Positions 4,613-47,940 of a stretch of DNA of 48,045 bases are shown in pieces. Positions within the stretch are counted from its first letter, which is position 1; every line of letters begins with the position of its first letter. Location of the stretch: positions 1 through 48,045 of the IMG/VR virus record IMGVR_UViG_3300006919_000091. The stretch is one strand, 5' to 3'. The DNA is from a virus. The notes beneath the pieces are model-generated. The model made no database searches, was not told the origin of the DNA, and saw only the letters and a list, made by a program, of their open reading frames with translations. The position numbers were made by a program, and so were the translations under genes.

Positions 4613-6819
4613 TGTACGAACAAAATTTAATTAAATCAGTTAGCCCTATTCGTTTAAATACTATTAAAAGATTTAATAAGTTAAATAAATGGGAGTATGG
4701 TTATAATAAAGATTACGATGTTGTAATTATAAGCAAAACCGGTAAGATAGGAGAAATTGTAGAAATACAAAATTTAAAAATAGCATTACCGTTAGCTCCA
4801 AATAATATTAATAAAGAAAATAATAGATGGACAGCTGATGAATACCCAAAAGAATTAAGTAAAATAAAAACTAGATTTGATTGGGAAACTTACCCAGATG
4901 GTTTTAAAAATAAATGGTATGCGTATATTGACAGAGAATTTACCAGGCGTGAAGAAGGTTATTGGTTTTATAACAAAGACGTCATTACTTATATTACTGG
5001 TTCTCATTACATGTACTTGCAGTGGGCTAAAATTGATGTTGGGAAGCCAGACTTCAGAGAAGCTAATAGAATTTTCTTTATTTTCTGGGAAGCGTGTAAA
5101 GCCGATCCCAGGGCTTATGGAATGTGCTATCTTAAAAACCGCCGATCCGGATTTAGTTTTATGTCTTCAGCGGAATCAGTCAATTTGGCAACAATTACAA
5201 AAGATGCACGGTTTGGAATATTGTCCAAATCTGGAGCTGACGCTAAAAAAATGTTCACAGATAAGGTTGTACCAATATCCCTTAACTACCCGTTCTTTTT
5301 TAAACCAATACAAGACGGAATGGATAGACCAAAATCAGAGCTTGCATTTAGAGTACCAGCATCAAAACTTACAAAAAAATCAATAGTACAAGTATCTGAA
5401 GAAAACGAGTTAGAAGGATTAGATACAACCATTGACTGGAAAAACACTGGTGATAACAGTTACGATGGTGAAAAGCTTAGTTTACTAGTTCACGATGAAT
5501 CTGGAAAGTGGGAAAGACCAGATAATATATTAAATAACTGGCGTGTTACTAAAACAACATTGAGACTAGGTAGTAAAATTATTGGAAAGTGTATGATGGG
5601 TTCAACATCAAATTCGCTTGAAAAAGGAGGTTCTAACTTTCAAAAATTATATAATGATTCAGATGTCACAAGAAGAAACCGCAATGGACAGACTAGTTCA
5701 GGATTATATTCTTTGTTCATACCTATGGAATGGAACTACGAAGGATTCATTGATTCTTATGGACACCCTGTATTTGAAACTCCAGAAAAACCAATTAAAG
5801 GAAATGACGGGGCTGAAATAGAAACCGGTGTTATTGAGTTTTGGGAAAATGAAGTAGAAGGGCTAAAGCACGACAGCGATGGCCTAAATGAATACTACAG
5901 ACAGTTCCCAAGAACTGAAGAGCATGCTTTTAGAGATGAGGCAAAAAATAGTATATTTAATTTAACAAAAATATACGAGCAAATAGATTTTAATGAAGAT
6001 TTAATAAGAAAAGGATATGTAACAAAAGGATCTTTTTCTTGGGAAAATGGAATTAAAGATTCTAAAGTAATGTTTACACCTAATGCTAACGGCAGGTTTT
6101 TAGTATCTTGGACTCCTTCTAAGAACATAGAAAATAATGTAATATTTAAAAATGGCATCAAATACCCTGGAAATGAGCATATGGGGGCCTTTGGTTGTGA
6201 CTCGTATGATATATCAGGCACAACAGACGGACAAGGATCAAAAGGTGCATTACACGGTTTAACAAAATTTAGTATGGAGGATGCTCCAGCTAACACATTT
6301 TTTTTAGAATATGTTGCACGCCCACAAACTGCTGAAATGTTTTTTGAAGATGTTCTTATGGCTTTGGTTTACTATGGTATGCCAATTTTGGCAGAGAATA
6401 ACAAGCCACGGCTATTGTATCACCTTAAACGTAGAGGCTATAGAGGATTTTCAATGAATCGACCAGACAAAGTTTGGAACAAATTGTCGGTAACTGAAAG
6501 AGAAATTGGTGGGATTCCAAATACATCTGAAGATATAAAACAAGCTCACGCTGCGGCTATTGAGACATATATTAATAACCATGTTGGCGTCACCACTGAA
6601 GGTGGTGGTAATATATATTTTAATAGAACATTAAATGATTGGGCTAAATTTGATATAAATAAAAGAACAAAATTTGATGCTGCTATAAGTTCAGGCTTAG
6701 CGATTATGGCTTGTAACAGGCATTTATATCATCCTAAACCTAAAGTAGAAAAACAAGCATTAAATTTAAAAATTTCACGATATAATAATAAAGGATCGCA
6801 TTCAACAATAATAAAATAG
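4612..6819 (+). CDS. terL: Terminase large subunit (ATPase/nuclease)
   Basis: 735 residues. The DNA-packaging motor ATPase shows a deviant Walker A, KNRRSGFS (K175-S182), where the lysine sits at the start as in lambda gpA (KSARVGYS) instead of before the final S/T. Walker B plus catalytic Glu are LSLLVHDE (D295/E296), and the coupling motif is GSTSN (around 330-334). The RNase H-like nuclease half begins with AFGCDSYDISG (catalytic Asp ~530) and ends with FDAAISSGLAIMA near the C-terminus. The enzyme cuts concatemers and translocates DNA into proheads through the portal encoded next. It overlaps terS by one base and the portal starts 2 bases after its stop. It is longer than T4/T7 large terminases (about 590-610 residues), mainly in the N-terminal ~120 residues. 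Confidence 0.9.
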   Translation: MYEQNLIKSVSPIRLNTIKRFNKLNKWEYGYNKDYDVVIISKTGKIGEIVEIQNLKIALPLAPNNINKENNRWTADEYPKELSKIKTRFDWETYPDGFKNKWYAYIDREFTRREEGYWFYNKDVITYITGSHYMYLQWAKIDVGKPDFREANRIFFIFWEACKADPRAYGMCYLKNRRSGFSFMSSAESVNLATITKDARFGILSKSGADAKKMFTDKVVPISLNYPFFFKPIQDGMDRPKSELAFRVPASKLTKKSIVQVSEENELEGLDTTIDWKNTGDNSYDGEKLSLLVHDESGKWERPDNILNNWRVTKTTLRLGSKIIGKCMMGSTSNSLEKGGSNFQKLYNDSDVTRRNRNGQTSSGLYSLFIPMEWNYEGFIDSYGHPVFETPEKPIKGNDGAEIETGVIEFWENEVEGLKHDSDGLNEYYRQFPRTEEHAFRDEAKNSIFNLTKIYEQIDFNEDLIRKGYVTKGSFSWENGIKDSKVMFTPNANGRFLVSWTPSKNIENNVIFKNGIKYPGNEHMGAFGCDSYDISGTTDGQGSKGALHGLTKFSMEDAPANTFFLEYVARPQTAEMFFEDVLMALVYYGMPILAENNKPRLLYHLKRRGYRGFSMNRPDKVWNKLSVTEREIGGIPNTSEDIKQAHAAAIETYINNHVGVTTEGGGNIYFNRTLNDWAKFDINKRTKFDAAISSGLAIMACNRHLYHPKPKVEKQALNLKISRYNNKGSHSTIIK

Positions 6820-41871: not shown

Positions 41872-42612
41872 TTACATTAAATCTGCTACTTGATTAGGGT
41901 CTACTGTCTCAATTAATTTATTAATAGCATCTCTTTTTATTTGTGATATTCTAACGTAAGCAGCTGCTCCTTCTATATTAAGTTTGTCTGCAATTTCTTT
42001 TGCTGACATTTTATCGCAATCTAATCCATAGCTCATTCTAAGTACATCATATTCTTTTATATTTAAATTACTTTCCATGATAGACAATAGATATTTATTT
42101 AATATATCAATATTATAGTCTTCAGTTTTATCTTCTATTTCCATTACCATATCATTTTCTAATGGCTCATCAATAGAATGAAAAATACTATTAAAAAACA
42201 TTTCAACTGTTGCTTTTTCTTTTTCAGAATTTTTTCGCATATCATTTAACTTATGCTCTGGTATACGAATATTTCCTCTATTAATATCTATAGCCCTTCT
42301 TATAGCTCCTTTTATTCTTTTAGATAAAAAAGATTTTAATGTTTTATCTGGATCTTCTGATTCTTGAACAACATTCCAATCAAGTTTATCAACAGCTTGT
42401 ATTAAACCAATATATCCTTCTTGAAGCATATCGTTTATAGTTAATACACCAGATGCTTGTTGGGTAGATGAAAATCTTCTTGCAATATTTTCCACTAGTG
42501 GCATCTCCGAGATGATAATATCTGTTCTTGGATCACCTGTGGGCAAGCGATGCTCGTAACTATCAATATCATTTTTATGTCTGATATAGTTTTGTACGTT
42601 ATATTTTTTCAT
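41872..42612 (-). CDS. Phage-encoded sigma-70 family RNA polymerase sigma factor
   Basis: 246 residues. Region 2: SEMPLVENIARRF, then LTINDMLQEGYIGLIQAVDK (core-binding/-10 melting), SFLSKRIKGAIRRAIDINRG (promoter -10 recognition helix). Region 3-like linker: IRIPEHKLNDMRKN. Region 4: NIKEYDVLRMSYGLD, MSAKEIADKLNIEGAAAYVR followed by ISQIKRDAINKLI, a helix-turn-helix for the -35 element. Such factors redirect host RNA polymerase to phage middle/late promoters. No phage RNA polymerase was found in the window, so this protein is the best candidate for the switch. It overlaps the upstream HTH gene by 14 bases. Confidence 0.9.
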   Translation of the reverse strand: MKKYNVQNYIRHKNDIDSYEHRLPTGDPRTDIIISEMPLVENIARRFSSTQQASGVLTINDMLQEGYIGLIQAVDKLDWNVVQESEDPDKTLKSFLSKRIKGAIRRAIDINRGNIRIPEHKLNDMRKNSEKEKATVEMFFNSIFHSIDEPLENDMVMEIEDKTEDYNIDILNKYLLSIMESNLNIKEYDVLRMSYGLDCDKMSAKEIADKLNIEGAAAYVRISQIKRDAINKLIETVDPNQVADLM

Positions 42613-43216
42613 TATTTAATATATTTTTTTCTTTATTAAGGTGATTATTCATGTTTCTGTAAACTGTTCTAGTTGATACACCAATAGCATCTGCTATCTT
42701 TTGTATTGTTATTTTTTCATTTTTATCACTTAGTAAAATCATAGCTTCATAAATATCTTCTTCAGTGCATTTTCTTGTTTTACCGATTAATTTGCCAACT
42801 ATACTTAATTTTTCATGTACATCTAATCCTGAAGTATCTTTAAATATTATTTTACGCTTTTTATTTTTTGGCGGAGATTCTAAATCGTACGTATATAGTT
42901 CGTCAATAATATTATCTATTAAATTCGTTGGTGCTACAAATGTAATAAAATTATTTGATATATTGGTTATAAACCGAGCAATTTTTTTCATATCTTCTTT
43001 TAATAAGTTAGGGTTTAAATACCAAAGAACTAATAAATGCCATTTTAAAGATTTGTAAGTATTTATTTTAGCCTTACTGCGAAACAGTTCATAACACTGG
43101 TATGTGCCATCCTCATAATACCAGCCCCAGTCGTATGTGCATGTAGGCATATCAGTCGTTGGATAAGCTCTGTATACAACGCGATTGTTGTTAAGCCATT
43201 TTAAATTATGTGACAT
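42599..43216 (-). CDS. HTH protein upstream of the sigma gene (regulator or replication initiator candidate)
   Basis: 205 residues. The C-terminal ~50 residues hold a helix-turn-helix: KITIQKIADAIGVSTRTVYR, followed by NMNNHLNKEKN, like resolvase or sigma region 4 HTHs. The N-terminal ~130 residues (KWLNNNRVVYRAYPTTDMPT, CTYDWGWYYEDGTYQCYELF) are aromatic-rich and unknown. The gene starts inside a two-box element (43209-43251) that recurs in the divergent region at 47897-47940, suggesting autoregulation or a shared promoter. It is coupled with the sigma gene by a 14-base overlap, so it may be an accessory or anti-sigma regulator. The function is inferred. Confidence 0.6.
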   Translation of the reverse strand: MSHNLKWLNNNRVVYRAYPTTDMPTCTYDWGWYYEDGTYQCYELFRSKAKINTYKSLKWHLLVLWYLNPNLLKEDMKKIARFITNISNNFITFVAPTNLIDNIIDELYTYDLESPPKNKKRKIIFKDTSGLDVHEKLSIVGKLIGKTRKCTEEDIYEAMILLSDKNEKITIQKIADAIGVSTRTVYRNMNNHLNKEKNILNNEKI

Positions 43217-43251
43217 TAGCGTGTTACTTATTATATTATAGGGTATTTGTC
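43209..43251 (-). promoter_or_regulatory. Two-box element, copy B (upstream of HTH gene)
   Basis: On the minus strand GACAAATACCCT (43251-43240) is followed after 19 bases by GCTAATGTCACA (43220-43209). The ATG inside the second box is the start codon of the HTH gene. The spacer includes TATAATATAATAAG, a good -10-like sequence. A near-identical pair lies at 47897-47940 on the plus strand. Confidence 0.6.
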
Positions 43252-43459
43252 ATGTATGCAATATACGCAATCTTCTTGAATATTTCTTTATAAGCGCTGC
43301 TTTTCTTTTTAAATCTTTTATTGGCATTCTATTTTTAGAGTGCCCAATTAAAACATCATCAATTATTTCATTTCTTAATTGATTTATAGATTTCCATAAA
43401 AACTCCGAATGCTCTTTCTTACGGCTTCGTCTTAGTCTTCTTATTATTTGCTTTATCAT
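43250..43459 (-). CDS. Small basic protein, 69 aa
   Basis: 69 residues, very Arg/Lys-rich: IKQIIRRLRRSRKKEHSEFL, then WKSINQLRNEIIDDVLIGHS and KKYSRRLRILHT at the end. It is helical, probably DNA- or RNA-binding. The last bases of the gene overlap the first base-pairs of the two-box element (stop TGA within ACATGACAAATACCC). The first 41 bases overlap the upstream small gene. Confidence 0.55.
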   Translation of the reverse strand: MIKQIIRRLRRSRKKEHSEFLWKSINQLRNEIIDDVLIGHSKNRMPIKDLKRKAALIKKYSRRLRILHT

Positions 43460-45263: not shown

Positions 45264-45473
45264 TTATTTATTTAATTGTAGTATTTGTTTCCAAATTTGT
45301 AGCTCACGACTATTAAATCTTATTTGATTGTCAATCATTTCTTGTGTATAAGATCCAGCGGCTATTTCTTTTTTTAAGGATTCTAATTCCATTTCAATAA
45401 AACTTATTTTTGAATAAGCTTTGTTGTGTATAGCAAAATACAATTCGTCGTCGGTCATTATGTTATCTTTCAT
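45264..45473 (-). CDS. Small early protein, 69 aa
   Basis: 69 residues (64 if the ATG five codons later is used): MTDDELYFAIHNKAYSKISF, then IEMELESLKKEIAAGSYTQE, helical with mixed charge. It lies directly downstream of early promoter-like box copy 1 (GGATAAT 17 bases before the start), so its 5' leader would be only about 10 bases. Function unknown. Confidence 0.6.
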   Translation of the reverse strand: MKDNIMTDDELYFAIHNKAYSKISFIEMELESLKKEIAAGSYTQEMIDNQIRFNSRELQIWKQILQLNK

Positions 45474-45485
45474 TCTTTTATTTTA

Positions 45486-45521
45486 TTATATTATCCTATT
45501 GTATTCGTATTTAGTTTGTCA
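45486..45521 (-). promoter_or_regulatory. Early promoter-like element, copy 1
   Basis: Minus strand: TGACAAACTAAATACG, nine bases, GGATAATATAA. It contains the TAA stop (45511-45513) of the upstream gene and lies 13 bases before the start of the 69-residue gene. Confidence 0.7.
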
Positions 45522-45669
45522 TATTTCTTTTAAAATAGTCGCGTACTTTTGTCATTTGTGATAACTCAAAGTTATAACCATTATATACGTAGTTTACTTT
45601 TGAATCAATTGTTTTTAATGATTTAATTCCGTTTACTCTGTCTAAGATTTTAATTTCTTTTGTTGTCAT
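45511..45669 (-). CDS. Small early protein, 52 aa
   Basis: 52 codons from ATG at 45667-45669 (MTTKEIKILDRVNGIKSLKT) through VNYVYNGYNFELSQM to TAA at 45511-45513. The start overlaps the previous stop (ATGA). The last codons ATG ACA AAC TAA are part of the downstream promoter-like element. Basic, with no known family. Confidence 0.6.
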   Translation of the reverse strand: MTTKEIKILDRVNGIKSLKTIDSKVNYVYNGYNFELSQMTKVRDYFKRNMTN

Positions 45670-45884
45670 TTTGTTACTCGTTTTATAAGGCTGAATAGCA
45701 CTTGTTGTTTTACTTTTAATTCTAGTTCATCAGTATATTCGATACTGTCATCATCAAGAGCCCAGTGTATTGTGTTATCAATGTGGTCGTCAATCTCTTC
45801 AATGATATGGCTTGCTATTGTTTCAATCATTTTATTCATATCAGGGCCGTAATTTTTTGCATTCATAATTTCTCTATCACTCAT
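45666..45884 (-). CDS. Small acidic early protein, 72 aa
   Basis: 72 residues: SDREIMNAKNYGPDMNKMIE, then ASHIIEEIDDHIDNTIHWAL, DDDSIEYTDELELKVKQQVL. The middle is strongly acidic (EEIDDHID, DDDSIEYTDE), reminiscent of DNA-mimic or inhibitor proteins, but no specific family is recognised. It starts one base after the previous stop. Confidence 0.6.
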   Translation of the reverse strand: MSDREIMNAKNYGPDMNKMIETIASHIIEEIDDHIDNTIHWALDDDSIEYTDELELKVKQQVLFSLIKRVTK

Positions 45885-45885
45885 A

Positions 45886-46218
45886 TTATTCTTGTAATTC
45901 TTTTTCTAATTCATAAAATGTTATTGTGTCAGGATGATCCATAAGATAATCATAAAGGCAAGCGTAAGCCGCTTGACCAATGTTTTCAGGTCGACCCCAC
46001 AATTCGTGCTCGTTGTAATGATATGCACTATTGTTTTCAAGTATAGCTTCGCAGTCATTATAGTAGATAACTGCATTGTCAATCCATTCGTGAAAGAAAT
46101 CATAAAAGTCGTCTTGGTCATTTATTTCGTCTTTGTGAAATGCATTCCATATATCATCAGATAATTCTTTTTCCATTTCTGTTAGCTTTGTGTTTTGTAA
46201 TGCTCTGTATAGTTCCAT
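45886..46218 (-). CDS. Acidic early protein, 110 aa (possible DNA-mimic)
   Basis: 110 residues, strongly acidic with many aromatics: MEKELSDDIWNAFHKDEIND, QDDFYDFFHEWIDNAVIYYN, HELWGRPENIGQAAYACLYDYL. The 'HEW(I/V)D.AV.YY.D...IL' helix followed by a Y/C-rich helix occurs in small phage proteins of unknown function. The charge and size would also suit an anti-restriction DNA mimic such as Ocr, though ArdA signatures are absent. First gene behind promoter-like copy 2, with a leader of about 13 bases. Confidence 0.6.
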   Translation of the reverse strand: MELYRALQNTKLTEMEKELSDDIWNAFHKDEINDQDDFYDFFHEWIDNAVIYYNDCEAILENNSAYHYNEHELWGRPENIGQAAYACLYDYLMDHPDTITFYELEKELQE

Positions 46219-46232
46219 AGTTTATTTGTTTA

Positions 46233-46268
46233 TTATATTATCCAGTTGTTATCGTATTTAGTTTGTAA
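46233..46268 (-). promoter_or_regulatory. Early promoter-like element, copy 2
   Basis: Minus strand: TTACAAACTAAATACG, nine bases, GGATAATATAA. 15 bases before the start of the 110-residue acidic gene; does not overlap the upstream stop codon (46275-46277). Confidence 0.75.
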
Positions 46269-46274
46269 CGTATT

Positions 46275-46388
46275 TTAAAAATTATTTAGTATACATTGAG
46301 CACATAAAGGCATTTCATTTACAAATTTATTAAAATAGTCGTACTCGTGTTCATTTAAGGGTTCATTGCAATAGCTACATTCTGTCAT
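46275..46388 (-). CDS. Tiny zinc-ribbon protein, 37 aa
   Basis: 37 codons from ATG at 46386-46388 (MTECSYCNEPLNEHEYDYFN) to TAA at 46275-46277. Two CxxC knuckles (ECSYCN and LCAQC) 26 residues apart form a minimal zinc ribbon. The start overlaps the upstream stop (ATGA), supporting translation. Such mini zinc proteins often bind RNA polymerase or other host proteins; the target is unknown. Confidence 0.65.
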   Translation of the reverse strand: MTECSYCNEPLNEHEYDYFNKFVNEMPLCAQCILNNF

Positions 46389-46597
46389 ATTACTACTTTT
46401 GTGTATTGGTGTTCTTTATTCCATGCTTTGCTGGTCATTGTTCCAGTGACGTGATAAGTATCATTTTCAAGGTGATATAATATTTCTTTGTATTCGGCAG
46501 TTCTTTCAGGGTCTTTGCATTGCTTTATTGCGTGGATAGTAGTAATGCCATTTCTATCTTTACCGTAGAATATCCAGGTTTGTGTTGTCTTTTTCAT
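46385..46597 (-). CDS. Small early protein, 70 aa
   Basis: 70 residues from ATG at 46595-46597 (MKKTTQTWIFYGKDRNGITT), one base after the upstream stop; an in-frame ATG at 46630 lies inside the upstream gene and was rejected. It continues IHAIKQCKDPERTAEYKEIL, YHVTGTMTSKAWNKEHQYTK. A beta-alpha-beta impression; function unknown. Confidence 0.6.
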   Translation of the reverse strand: MKKTTQTWIFYGKDRNGITTIHAIKQCKDPERTAEYKEILYHLENDTYHVTGTMTSKAWNKEHQYTKVVI

Positions 46598-46598
46598 A

Positions 46599-46913
46599 TT
46601 AGTATAGTTTATTTTCTCGTATGTATTCACCTAGCTTTAGTTGTGATTCGTGTATAGCAGATTTTTTCTTTTCAATATCTGTGACAAGCTCAATTGCTCG
46701 GTTTATATCGTCGCAGTATACTATTGTTGTTGAAGGTTCGTTGCGATTTTGATAATGAACAGTTACACCGGGCATTGTAGGATCTGGTAAGTATATTTGA
46801 TTTTTACCTTTGAAGATTGTGTAAAGGTGAGTTGATTTGAATGATCGGCTGAAGCTTGGGTATTTACCGCTTTCAACTTCTTTAATTATTGTTTTTATTG
46901 TTTTCATATTCAT
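46599..46913 (-). CDS. Small early protein, ~104 aa
   Basis: 104 residues (102 if the ATG two codons later, at 46907, is used): MKTIKTIIKEVESGKYPSFS, FKGKNQIYLPDPTMPGVTVH, then YCDDINRAIELVTDIEKKKS and a charged helix. A beta-rich N-half and helical C-half. It lies directly behind promoter-like copy 3. Function unknown. Confidence 0.6.
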   Translation of the reverse strand: MNMKTIKTIIKEVESGKYPSFSRSFKSTHLYTIFKGKNQIYLPDPTMPGVTVHYQNRNEPSTTIVYCDDINRAIELVTDIEKKKSAIHESQLKLGEYIRENKLY

Positions 46914-46922
46914 ATTATTTTA

Positions 46923-46958
46923 TATTATTATCCTACTTGTGACGTATTTACTTTGTAA
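46923..46958 (-). promoter_or_regulatory. Early promoter-like element, copy 3
   Basis: Minus strand: TTACAAAGTAAATACG, nine bases, GGATAATAATAT. Contains the TAA stop (46948-46950) of the upstream gene; 10-16 bases before the next start. Confidence 0.7.
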
Positions 46959-47184
46959 TTATATTTTGCTTAATTCTCGGTAACGTGTGAGCACTCCAAC
47001 GATTGCCTTTTGAATATACACGTCTTGTACGACTTTTTATTTTACTTGACTGTAGTTTTATAGACTCATTGAATTCTGCTTGCGTAAAGCCTTGTATTGT
47101 GCCATAACCAACTACTTTTCTATATTCTGCAGCTTTTTCTTTCTTCTTGTTAGCCGAATAAGCTAATAATTCTTTCATAGTCAT
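46948..47184 (-). CDS. Small basic early protein, 78 aa
   Basis: 78 residues (76 from the second ATG): MKELLAYSANKKKEKAAEYR, then VVGYGTIQGFTQAEFNESIK and a basic C-terminus (KIKSRTRRVYSKGNRWSAHT). Likely nucleic-acid binding by charge. It ends ACA AAG TAA inside promoter-like copy 3. It is preceded by a 134-base non-coding stretch. Confidence 0.6.
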   Translation of the reverse strand: MTMKELLAYSANKKKEKAAEYRKVVGYGTIQGFTQAEFNESIKLQSSKIKSRTRRVYSKGNRWSAHTLPRIKQNIITK

Positions 47185-47318
47185 ATTATATATTTTTTTA
47201 GTTAGTAAGTGCTGAGGACTATAGTCTAAGGGGTATTAGTTGTTTATTAGTTATTTTTAGTTAGTAGGGATAGTTCGCTAGTTCTGTACACTTTTTAAGT
47301 TATTTTAGCTAATATTTC
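47185..47318. other. Non-coding stretch with direct repeat and palindrome
   Basis: 134 bases without a supported gene. It holds a 13-base direct repeat TTTTTAGTTAGTA (47195-47207 and 47254-47266) and a perfect palindrome GACTATAGTC (47217-47226). No copy of the early promoter-like element is present. It may hold an operator or a regulatory leader for the 78-residue gene. Confidence 0.5.
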
Positions 47319-47456
47319 TTAACATTCTTCAACTTTTAGTATATTATTTAAACCAAAATGTTTTATTACTTCTTCAATTGTGTTTGCTTGTGCATACTTA
47401 ATCCAATTTTTTCCACACTTTCTAGTTTGTACTTTTGTTACTTTAAACATTTTCAT
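47319..47456 (-). CDS. Small early protein, 45 aa
   Basis: 45 codons from ATG at 47454-47456 (MKMFKVTKVQTRKCGKNWIK) through YAQANTIEEVIKHFGLNNIL to TAA at 47319-47321. Basic N-half; looks like a short beta-beta-alpha fold. It lies behind promoter-like copy 4. Function unknown. Confidence 0.6.
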   Translation of the reverse strand: MKMFKVTKVQTRKCGKNWIKYAQANTIEEVIKHFGLNNILKVEEC

Positions 47457-47477
47457 AATTTATACTTTTAATTACAC

Positions 47478-47513
47478 TTATATTATCCAGTTTGCTTCGT
47501 ATTTACTTTGTAA
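47478..47513 (-). promoter_or_regulatory. Early promoter-like element, copy 4
   Basis: Minus strand: TTACAAAGTAAATACG, nine bases, GGATAATATAA. Contains the TAA stop (47503-47505) of the upstream gene; 21 bases before the 45-residue gene. Confidence 0.75.
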
Positions 47514-47679
47514 GTTTAAGTAATTCTTTTTCACAAATCTTAATCTCTTCATTTAATTTGTTAGAAAGTAAATCTTTACCATCATTCATACTTTTAATAA
47601 ACTTCTTTTCCATTTCTCTTTTTCTTTGGTTGTAGAAAGTTATTTTGTTTTCTTTAGTAAATGTTTGTGGAAATCTCAT
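47503..47679 (-). CDS. Small early protein, 58 aa
   Basis: 58 codons from ATG at 47677-47679 (MRFPQTFTKENKITFYNQRK), continuing REMEKKFIKSMNDGKDLLSN and ending KELLKLTK. It is highly charged and helical. First gene of the leftward arm, 33 bases behind promoter-like copy 5. Its last codons ACA AAG TAA are part of copy 4. Function unknown. Confidence 0.6.
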   Translation of the reverse strand: MRFPQTFTKENKITFYNQRKREMEKKFIKSMNDGKDLLSNKLNEEIKICEKELLKLTK

Positions 47680-47712
47680 TTTTATATATTTAAATTTATA
47701 TTGTTTTTACAT

Positions 47713-47748
47713 TTATATTATCCAAACTAGTTCGTGTTTACATTGTAA
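47713..47748 (-). promoter_or_regulatory. Early promoter-like element, copy 5 (most upstream)
   Basis: Minus strand: TTACAATGTAAACACG, nine bases, GGATAATATAA. The most divergent first half, the same spacing. It would start the entire leftward arm. Confidence 0.7.
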
Positions 47749-47896
47749 TTAATTAAAATAAAAAGCTAAAAACTTTACATATTGTTGTAACTTATTGGTA
47801 CCCATGGGGTTAAAAAAATGGTTTTAGTTAAGTGGCTGGTTGTCAGATAGTTATGCGTAATACAAAATCTCTATATATCTCACAAAAATTTTATGT

Positions 47897-47940
47897 GACA
47901 AATACCCCATATATATACATAATAGCAGGCTAATGTCACA
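47897..47940 (+). promoter_or_regulatory. Two-box element, copy A
   Basis: GACAAATACCCC (47897-47908), a 20-base A/T-rich spacer, GCTAATGTCACA (47929-47940). The second box again contains ATGTCACA, but here the reading frame stops after five codons (MSHHP), so the copy carries no gene. It points rightward toward the gene at 48022. Confidence 0.6.

Follow-up and report, generated by a model that had tools for sequence, protein, structure and literature searches.

An exactly spaced promoter-like element in the replication arm of a 48,045-bp virus record, with a phage sigma factor as its probable reader

The 48,045-bp virus record analysed here over its full length (the window, G000) carries on its minus strand exactly five copies of a strictly spaced element, TTACAAA(C/G)TAAATACG-N9-GGATAAT, which we call M1. 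M1 is a real and widespread promoter family, and we think it probable that it marks a sigma-70-type promoter regulon whose sigma factor is encoded by the phage itself. That this sigma factor reads M1, that M1 is transcribed and when this happens are points that we infer from comparisons of sequence; if the phage sigma does read M1, the M1 promoters would belong to the delayed-early or middle class.

All five copies lie where an earlier note on this DNA had reported them (Table 1), with no sixth on either strand, and 100 dinucleotide shuffles of the window yielded no match to the 32-base M1 core at up to 3 mismatches. The gap between the upstream box and GGATAAT, which the same note had described as strictly nine bases, is exactly nine in every window copy and in 454 of the 455 pattern matches among relatives. 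Downstream, the ATG of a minus-strand open reading frame (ORF) follows the end of GGATAAT at a distance of 13-37 bases, and the upstream half of M1 frequently extends over the stop codon that ends the ORF before it (e.g. ACA AAG TAA).

M1 occurs in its exact form in 118 or more stretches of viral contigs in IMG/VR. At up to 2 mismatches it was present in all 45 records searched, mostly as 3-9 copies on one strand, and the reversed pattern had no match in the same 45 records. Genomes hold 1-12 copies, nearly all on one strand and in intergenic gaps. A weight-matrix scan of the phage and its relatives, the check that the earlier note had proposed, found 171 sites across 26 genomes or segments with M1, six of which are whole or nearly whole records; this count stays nearly constant from a threshold of 12 to one of 25 bits. 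The scan gave no site on the opposite, structural strand of these 26 sequences, and hence none placed to drive structural genes, none in the reversed and Markov controls, and none in the relative MW202828 or in the stretch of phage elemo that was scanned. The centre of M1 falls within an ORF of at least 60 aa at 1% of sites, versus 59% of random positions. At 86% of sites, versus 32% of random positions, an ORF begins within 60 nucleotides (nt) downstream of the inferred +1. The motif is thus neither equally frequent inside genes nor shared between orientations, so that this outcome, which the earlier note had named as one that would refute its proposal, did not arise. The gene order that follows the array is kept, usually running ligase, helix-turn-helix (HTH) protein, sigma, Erf, exonuclease and primase; occasional M1 sites precede sigma, exonuclease or primase, and in one relative (G027) M1 stands directly before the sigma gene.

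Two unrelated signals point to the base at which M1 transcription may start. Among 471 M1 sites with at most 5 mismatches, a purine stands 7 nt past GATAAT in 97%; for the 322 of them without a nearby start codon, the base there is G in 56%, A in 40%, T in 3% and C in 0%, and a pyrimidine precedes this purine in 74%. An ATG lies exactly at the same base in 102 of the 471 sites, with far fewer lying one or two bases off. Because the purine and the ATG peak share one coordinate, we place the expected start 7 nt past GATAAT, which would put GATAAT at -12 to -7 in the manner of a sigma-70-type promoter. This agrees with the earlier proposal that the phage has a promoter family of its own, in which GATAAT serves as the -10 and transcription begins some 7 bases on; the accompanying idea of a -35-like hexamer plus a spacer did not hold, the upstream half being one conserved box of ~17 bp that extends from -38 to -22. 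About a quarter of M1 genes (22-27%) would be leaderless, with the start codon at the inferred +1, a configuration seen in 46 of 170 cases in a second set. Many of the non-leaderless M1 genes (e.g. L028, L035, L053 and L061) carry GGATAATATAAATGTAA, and in these leaders the start-stop ATGTAA straddles the inferred +1.

The proposed reader is a phage sigma-70-family factor (Table 1). In its protein family, Pfam recognises Sigma70_r2 in 38 of 40 members and Sigma70_r4 in 32 of 40, and the window protein matches sigma-70-family chains by PDB profile search. Its AlphaFold model (predicted local distance difference test, pLDDT, 78; predicted template modelling score, pTM, 0.51) has a Foldseek match to chains of the same family, a match that holds domain by domain, with poor long-range superposition. 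The sigma gene accompanies M1 in 35 of 45 M1 records and in all 21 of those of at least 56 kb; many of the M1 records that lack it are fragments with a contig end near the M1 array. Conversely, M1 was found at 49 of the 50 sigma loci with at least 6 kb upstream, and loci chosen by primase, a choice independent of both sigma and M1, had sigma, HTH and M1 in all 43 cases with enough flank. MW202828 and elemo, two M1-free relatives at a greater distance, are also without sigma.

Each phage has a version of M1 that is common to its copies: ATATAAGTTTGACACGA in L327, TCGAAACTTAATACGA in L333, TTACAAACAAAATATAA in L307 and TTACAGTCTTAATACGA in L305. GATAATA is constant across these dialects, and the base before GATAAT (the first G of the GG pair in GGATAAT) is G, A, C or T in different genomes. 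Copies differ less within a genome than between genomes in the -38 to -31 box (0.204 vs 0.255), in the -30 to -22 box (0.166 vs 0.229) and, with the largest contrast, at position -13 (0.198 vs 0.625), the two values being nearly equal in the spacer (0.620 vs 0.652). Since the spacer hardly differs between the two comparisons, recent copying of sites is not the main cause of M1 uniformity, and uniformity within a phage together with variation between phages would therefore be explained most simply by a reader that the phage encodes.

This reader could conceivably be an activator. Host RNA polymerase, assisted by the HTH protein or by another phage protein bound at -38 to -22, would then transcribe from M1 in the manner of T4 MotA, and the phage sigma would serve other promoters. 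The 17-bp upstream box exceeds the length of a sigma region 4 site, and the HTH gene is co-conserved with the sigma gene and overlaps it; both points favour an activator. T4 middle promoters have a conserved MotA box centred near -30 and a TATAAT-like -10, and M1 likewise joins an upstream box to a TATAAT-like -10. We nevertheless consider an activator unlikely. A 63-kb relative (G250) has sigma and M1 variants and no HTH homologue, so the HTH protein, which is probably a regulator, is dispensable for M1 there, though another activator may act in its place, and GATAAT differs from the host sigma-A -7 box TAnnTTTG. Furthermore, although the HTH gene sits between sigma and the M1 array, natural recombinants still separate sigma from HTH, and in them M1 identity tracks sigma, not HTH: in three pairs with sigma at most ~10% different and HTH 35-41% different, M1 is nearly equal (distance 0.05-0.07), whereas in four pairs with HTH at most ~10% different and sigma more than 20% different, M1 distances lie on average near background, one pair excepted. 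The M1 phages thus differ from T4 in needing no HTH partner in G250, in the independence of M1 identity from the HTH gene and in the -10 class of the host.

Were M1 an immediate-early promoter for an alternative sigma of the host, acting in an unmodified holoenzyme, the first switching-on of the arm would be accounted for, and rare chromosomal copies of M1 do exist. However, no more than 8 of 199 genomes from the presumed host family contain M1 at up to 3 mismatches, with 1-2 sites each, so a host M1 regulon is rejected, and the variation of M1 from phage to phage would demand equally many host specificities; this explanation we hold to be quite improbable. As to the vegetative host sigma, TAnnTTTG boxes occur at Markov level in whole M1 genomes and upstream of HTH/sigma, and candidate sigma-A promoters ahead of the arm or of HTH/sigma were rejected because they do not exceed background. 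M1 itself lacks TAnnTTTG, and its departure from the Bacteroidota vegetative consensus had been correctly pointed out before. The likeness of TAAATACGA-N8-GG to TAATACGACTCACTATAGG, together with the few ATGs that stand right after GGATAAT, could suggest a promoter of a single-subunit, T7-like phage RNA polymerase that starts at GG. We give this idea very little credence and regard it as largely refuted: neither the window phage nor any tested M1 record matches PF00940 (for 17 of the records even at E 10; T7 control 1e-109), the first G varies between genomes and the purine signature stands 12-13 nt downstream. We likewise rejected the 2488-aa and 1905-aa virion proteins as carriers of a hidden virion RNA polymerase, as neither contains a polymerase family or a DxDGD-type motif; the larger protein matches only a virion-structural PHROG and the smaller has no confident family, and a very divergent virion polymerase may be present in them. 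Finally, the position of M1 just before start codons would also suit a post-transcriptional or other DNA element that is no promoter (an RNA leader, a replication or a packaging site), but the rigid 9-base spacing, the conserved half lying over upstream stop codons, the purine start-site signature and the restriction to one strand make this scarcely believable.

Several observations weigh against M1 promoters being read by the phage sigma. Because the sigma gene lies downstream of the M1 array, something else must start expression, and we identified no promoter that does so. The highly conserved stretch from -30 to -22 is odd for a promoter that depends on sigma only, and at ~1.5% of sites GGATAAT is directly followed by an apparent ATG that precedes the inferred start. 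One relative (G249) has sigma and HTH with no M1 and is thus an exception to their co-occurrence. In addition, a capped partial test of M1 that controls for five neighbouring proteins singles out sigma, yet the correlation is small (r 0.136, 0/300 permutations), and the spacer, which is not under constraint, reaches almost as high a value (r 0.131). In view of this spacer control we treat the partial correlation as no proof of recognition; it may reflect co-inheritance or shared descent instead. Column-wise mutual information and plain Mantel tests of M1 against sigma or HTH, both confounded by descent, pointed to no clear recognition residue either. In the exceptional relative (L420-L423, 63.6 kb), structural-arm genes occupy the position of the array, and no ligase, exonuclease or primase was found.

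The course of events that we favour would thus be as follows. Host RNA polymerase core carrying the phage sigma would recognise TTACAAACTAAATACGA (-38 to -22) as a single long box at fixed spacing from GATAAT, which would act as the -10 element (-12 to -7) and direct the start 7 nt on. The array of 1-12 copies would drive the small genes heading the replication arm, giving rise to short-leader or leaderless mRNAs, and read-through from it would cover ligase, HTH and sigma, thus creating a self-amplifying positive feedback. Candidates for the first trigger are a weak host promoter, sigma brought along in the virion, or a palindrome (M2, see below). In a bolder form of this proposal, to which we grant a small chance, a sigma of a new phage clade reads the unusually long, near-continuous double-stranded box (-38 to -22) alone, co-evolves with it into phage dialects and enters with the virion, such that the replication arm needs no host-sigma promoter.

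Like phiEco32 and Salmonella phage 7-11, the M1 phages have divergent structural and replication clusters, a sigma of their own and phage promoters upstream of the sigma gene. In phiEco32 and 7-11, the sigma promoters serve the structural (late) genes as well and their core is short, e.g. TAATGTATA, and host-type early promoters have been predicted for 7-11 (PMC4331800). In contrast, M1 was found in the replication arm only and not in the structural arm, it is ~30 bp long, including an upstream box of 17 bp, and would often be leaderless, and host-type promoters are not enriched in M1 phages. The sigma-A consensus of Bacteroidota, to which the probable hosts belong by MAG (metagenome-assembled genome) and relative assignments, is a TAnnTTTG -7 box with an upstream TTG/TTTG (PMC9723704), whereas M1 has GATAAT as its -10. 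Leaderless promoters of the form TAnnnT-N6-ATG resemble the M1 sites with ATG at the inferred +1 (102/471), where a -10 and 6 nt likewise precede the ATG; leaderless transcripts make up 5.5% of the mapped mRNAs of F. psychrophilum (PMC9723704), compared with the ~22-27% suggested for M1 genes. In the open-access literature we found no report of the M1 motif or of this sigma clade.

The structural genes of the window phage (terminase large subunit, virion structural protein) form an arm that runs rightward; the replication arm runs leftward and encodes ribonucleotide reductase, a MazG-type protein, thymidylate synthase, primase-helicase, exonuclease, an Erf-type annealing protein, the sigma factor, the HTH protein and ligase. 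A near-identity search of phage records with the window gave no match. The nearest annotated terminases are those of MW202828 (65% identity) and of Flavobacterium elemo and Cellulophaga phages, and several M1 contigs were binned in Flavobacteriaceae MAGs; on these two grounds flavobacteria are the likely hosts. Our scan found relatives of the sigma factor in 289 IMG/VR stretches, as against none among 50,697 annotated phage records, which indicates a common uncultured phage group, probably of marine flavobacteria. In such phages the rigid and easily scanned M1 allows operons, leaderless genes and temporal classes to be predicted, and its natural dialects, paired with sigma sequences, make sigma-DNA recognition in Bacteroidota testable. 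M1 and the phage sigma might also be used as an orthogonal promoter/sigma pair in this phylum, in which standard promoters fail.

Table 1. Coordinates of the M1 copies and associated features in the window.
Feature	Position	Strand	Description
M1 copy 1	47717..47748	(-)	TTACAATGTAAACACG-N9-GGATAAT; 2 mismatches to 32-base core; inferred +1 47710; ORF 47503-47679
M1 copy 2	47482..47513	(-)	TTACAAAGTAAATACG-N9-GGATAAT; 0 mismatches; inferred +1 47475; ORF 47319-47456; box overlaps stop codon of preceding ORF
M1 copy 3	46927..46958	(-)	0 mismatches; inferred +1 46920; ORF 46599-46913; box overlaps stop codon of ORF 46948-47184
M1 copy 4	46237..46268	(-)	0 mismatches; inferred +1 46230; ORF 45886-46218
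M1 copy 5	45490..45521	(-)	TGACAAACTAAATACG-N9-GGATAAT; 1 mismatch; inferred +1 45483; ORF 45264-45473
Phage sigma-70-family factor	41872..42612	(-)	246 aa, regions 2 and 4; Pfam, PHROG 351, PDB profile, AlphaFold/Foldseek; proposed M1 reader
HTH DNA-binding protein	42599..43216	(-)	205 aa; overlaps sigma gene; co-conserved partner
M2	43211..43252	(-)	over HTH gene start codon (TGACAAATACCCTATAATATAATAAGTAACACGCTAATGTCA); putative operator
M2-like palindrome	47896..47938	.	head of divergent structural arm (TGACATTAGCC...TTTGTCA)

A second element, M2, is an imperfect palindrome of 42-45 bp, TGACANTAGCC-N-TAGTAACAGGCTAATGTCA, seen in the window and in L235-L254. It lies over the HTH start codon in 63 of 104 cases and heads the structural arm in 30 of 75, there in the opposite orientation. 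The HTH protein may use it as an operator, or it may be a further site of control. Many relatives have a C-rich conserved block (GCCCC...GGGCCCC; e.g. L247, ~5800-6010) in the divergent intergenic region, where it separates M2 from the first M1 copy; this block is a candidate terminator, structured RNA or origin.

Perfect or near-perfect M1 copies also occur in host chromosomes (L153 and the Flavobacteriaceae MAG chromosomes L155, L156 and L161). In two MAGs the copy precedes a duplicated, truncated secreted-protein ORF (MKTKITIATLLFGFTVNAQ...) and in a third a gene beginning MGILDFFSGK, and it is conceivable that such host genes are switched on by the phage sigma during infection. A 64-kb Prochlorococcus single-amplified-genome contig (L147) with a single M1 copy is possibly a co-sorted phage contig, and in one further contig (G016; L138, L141) the ligase-HTH-sigma-Erf-exonuclease block is present twice.

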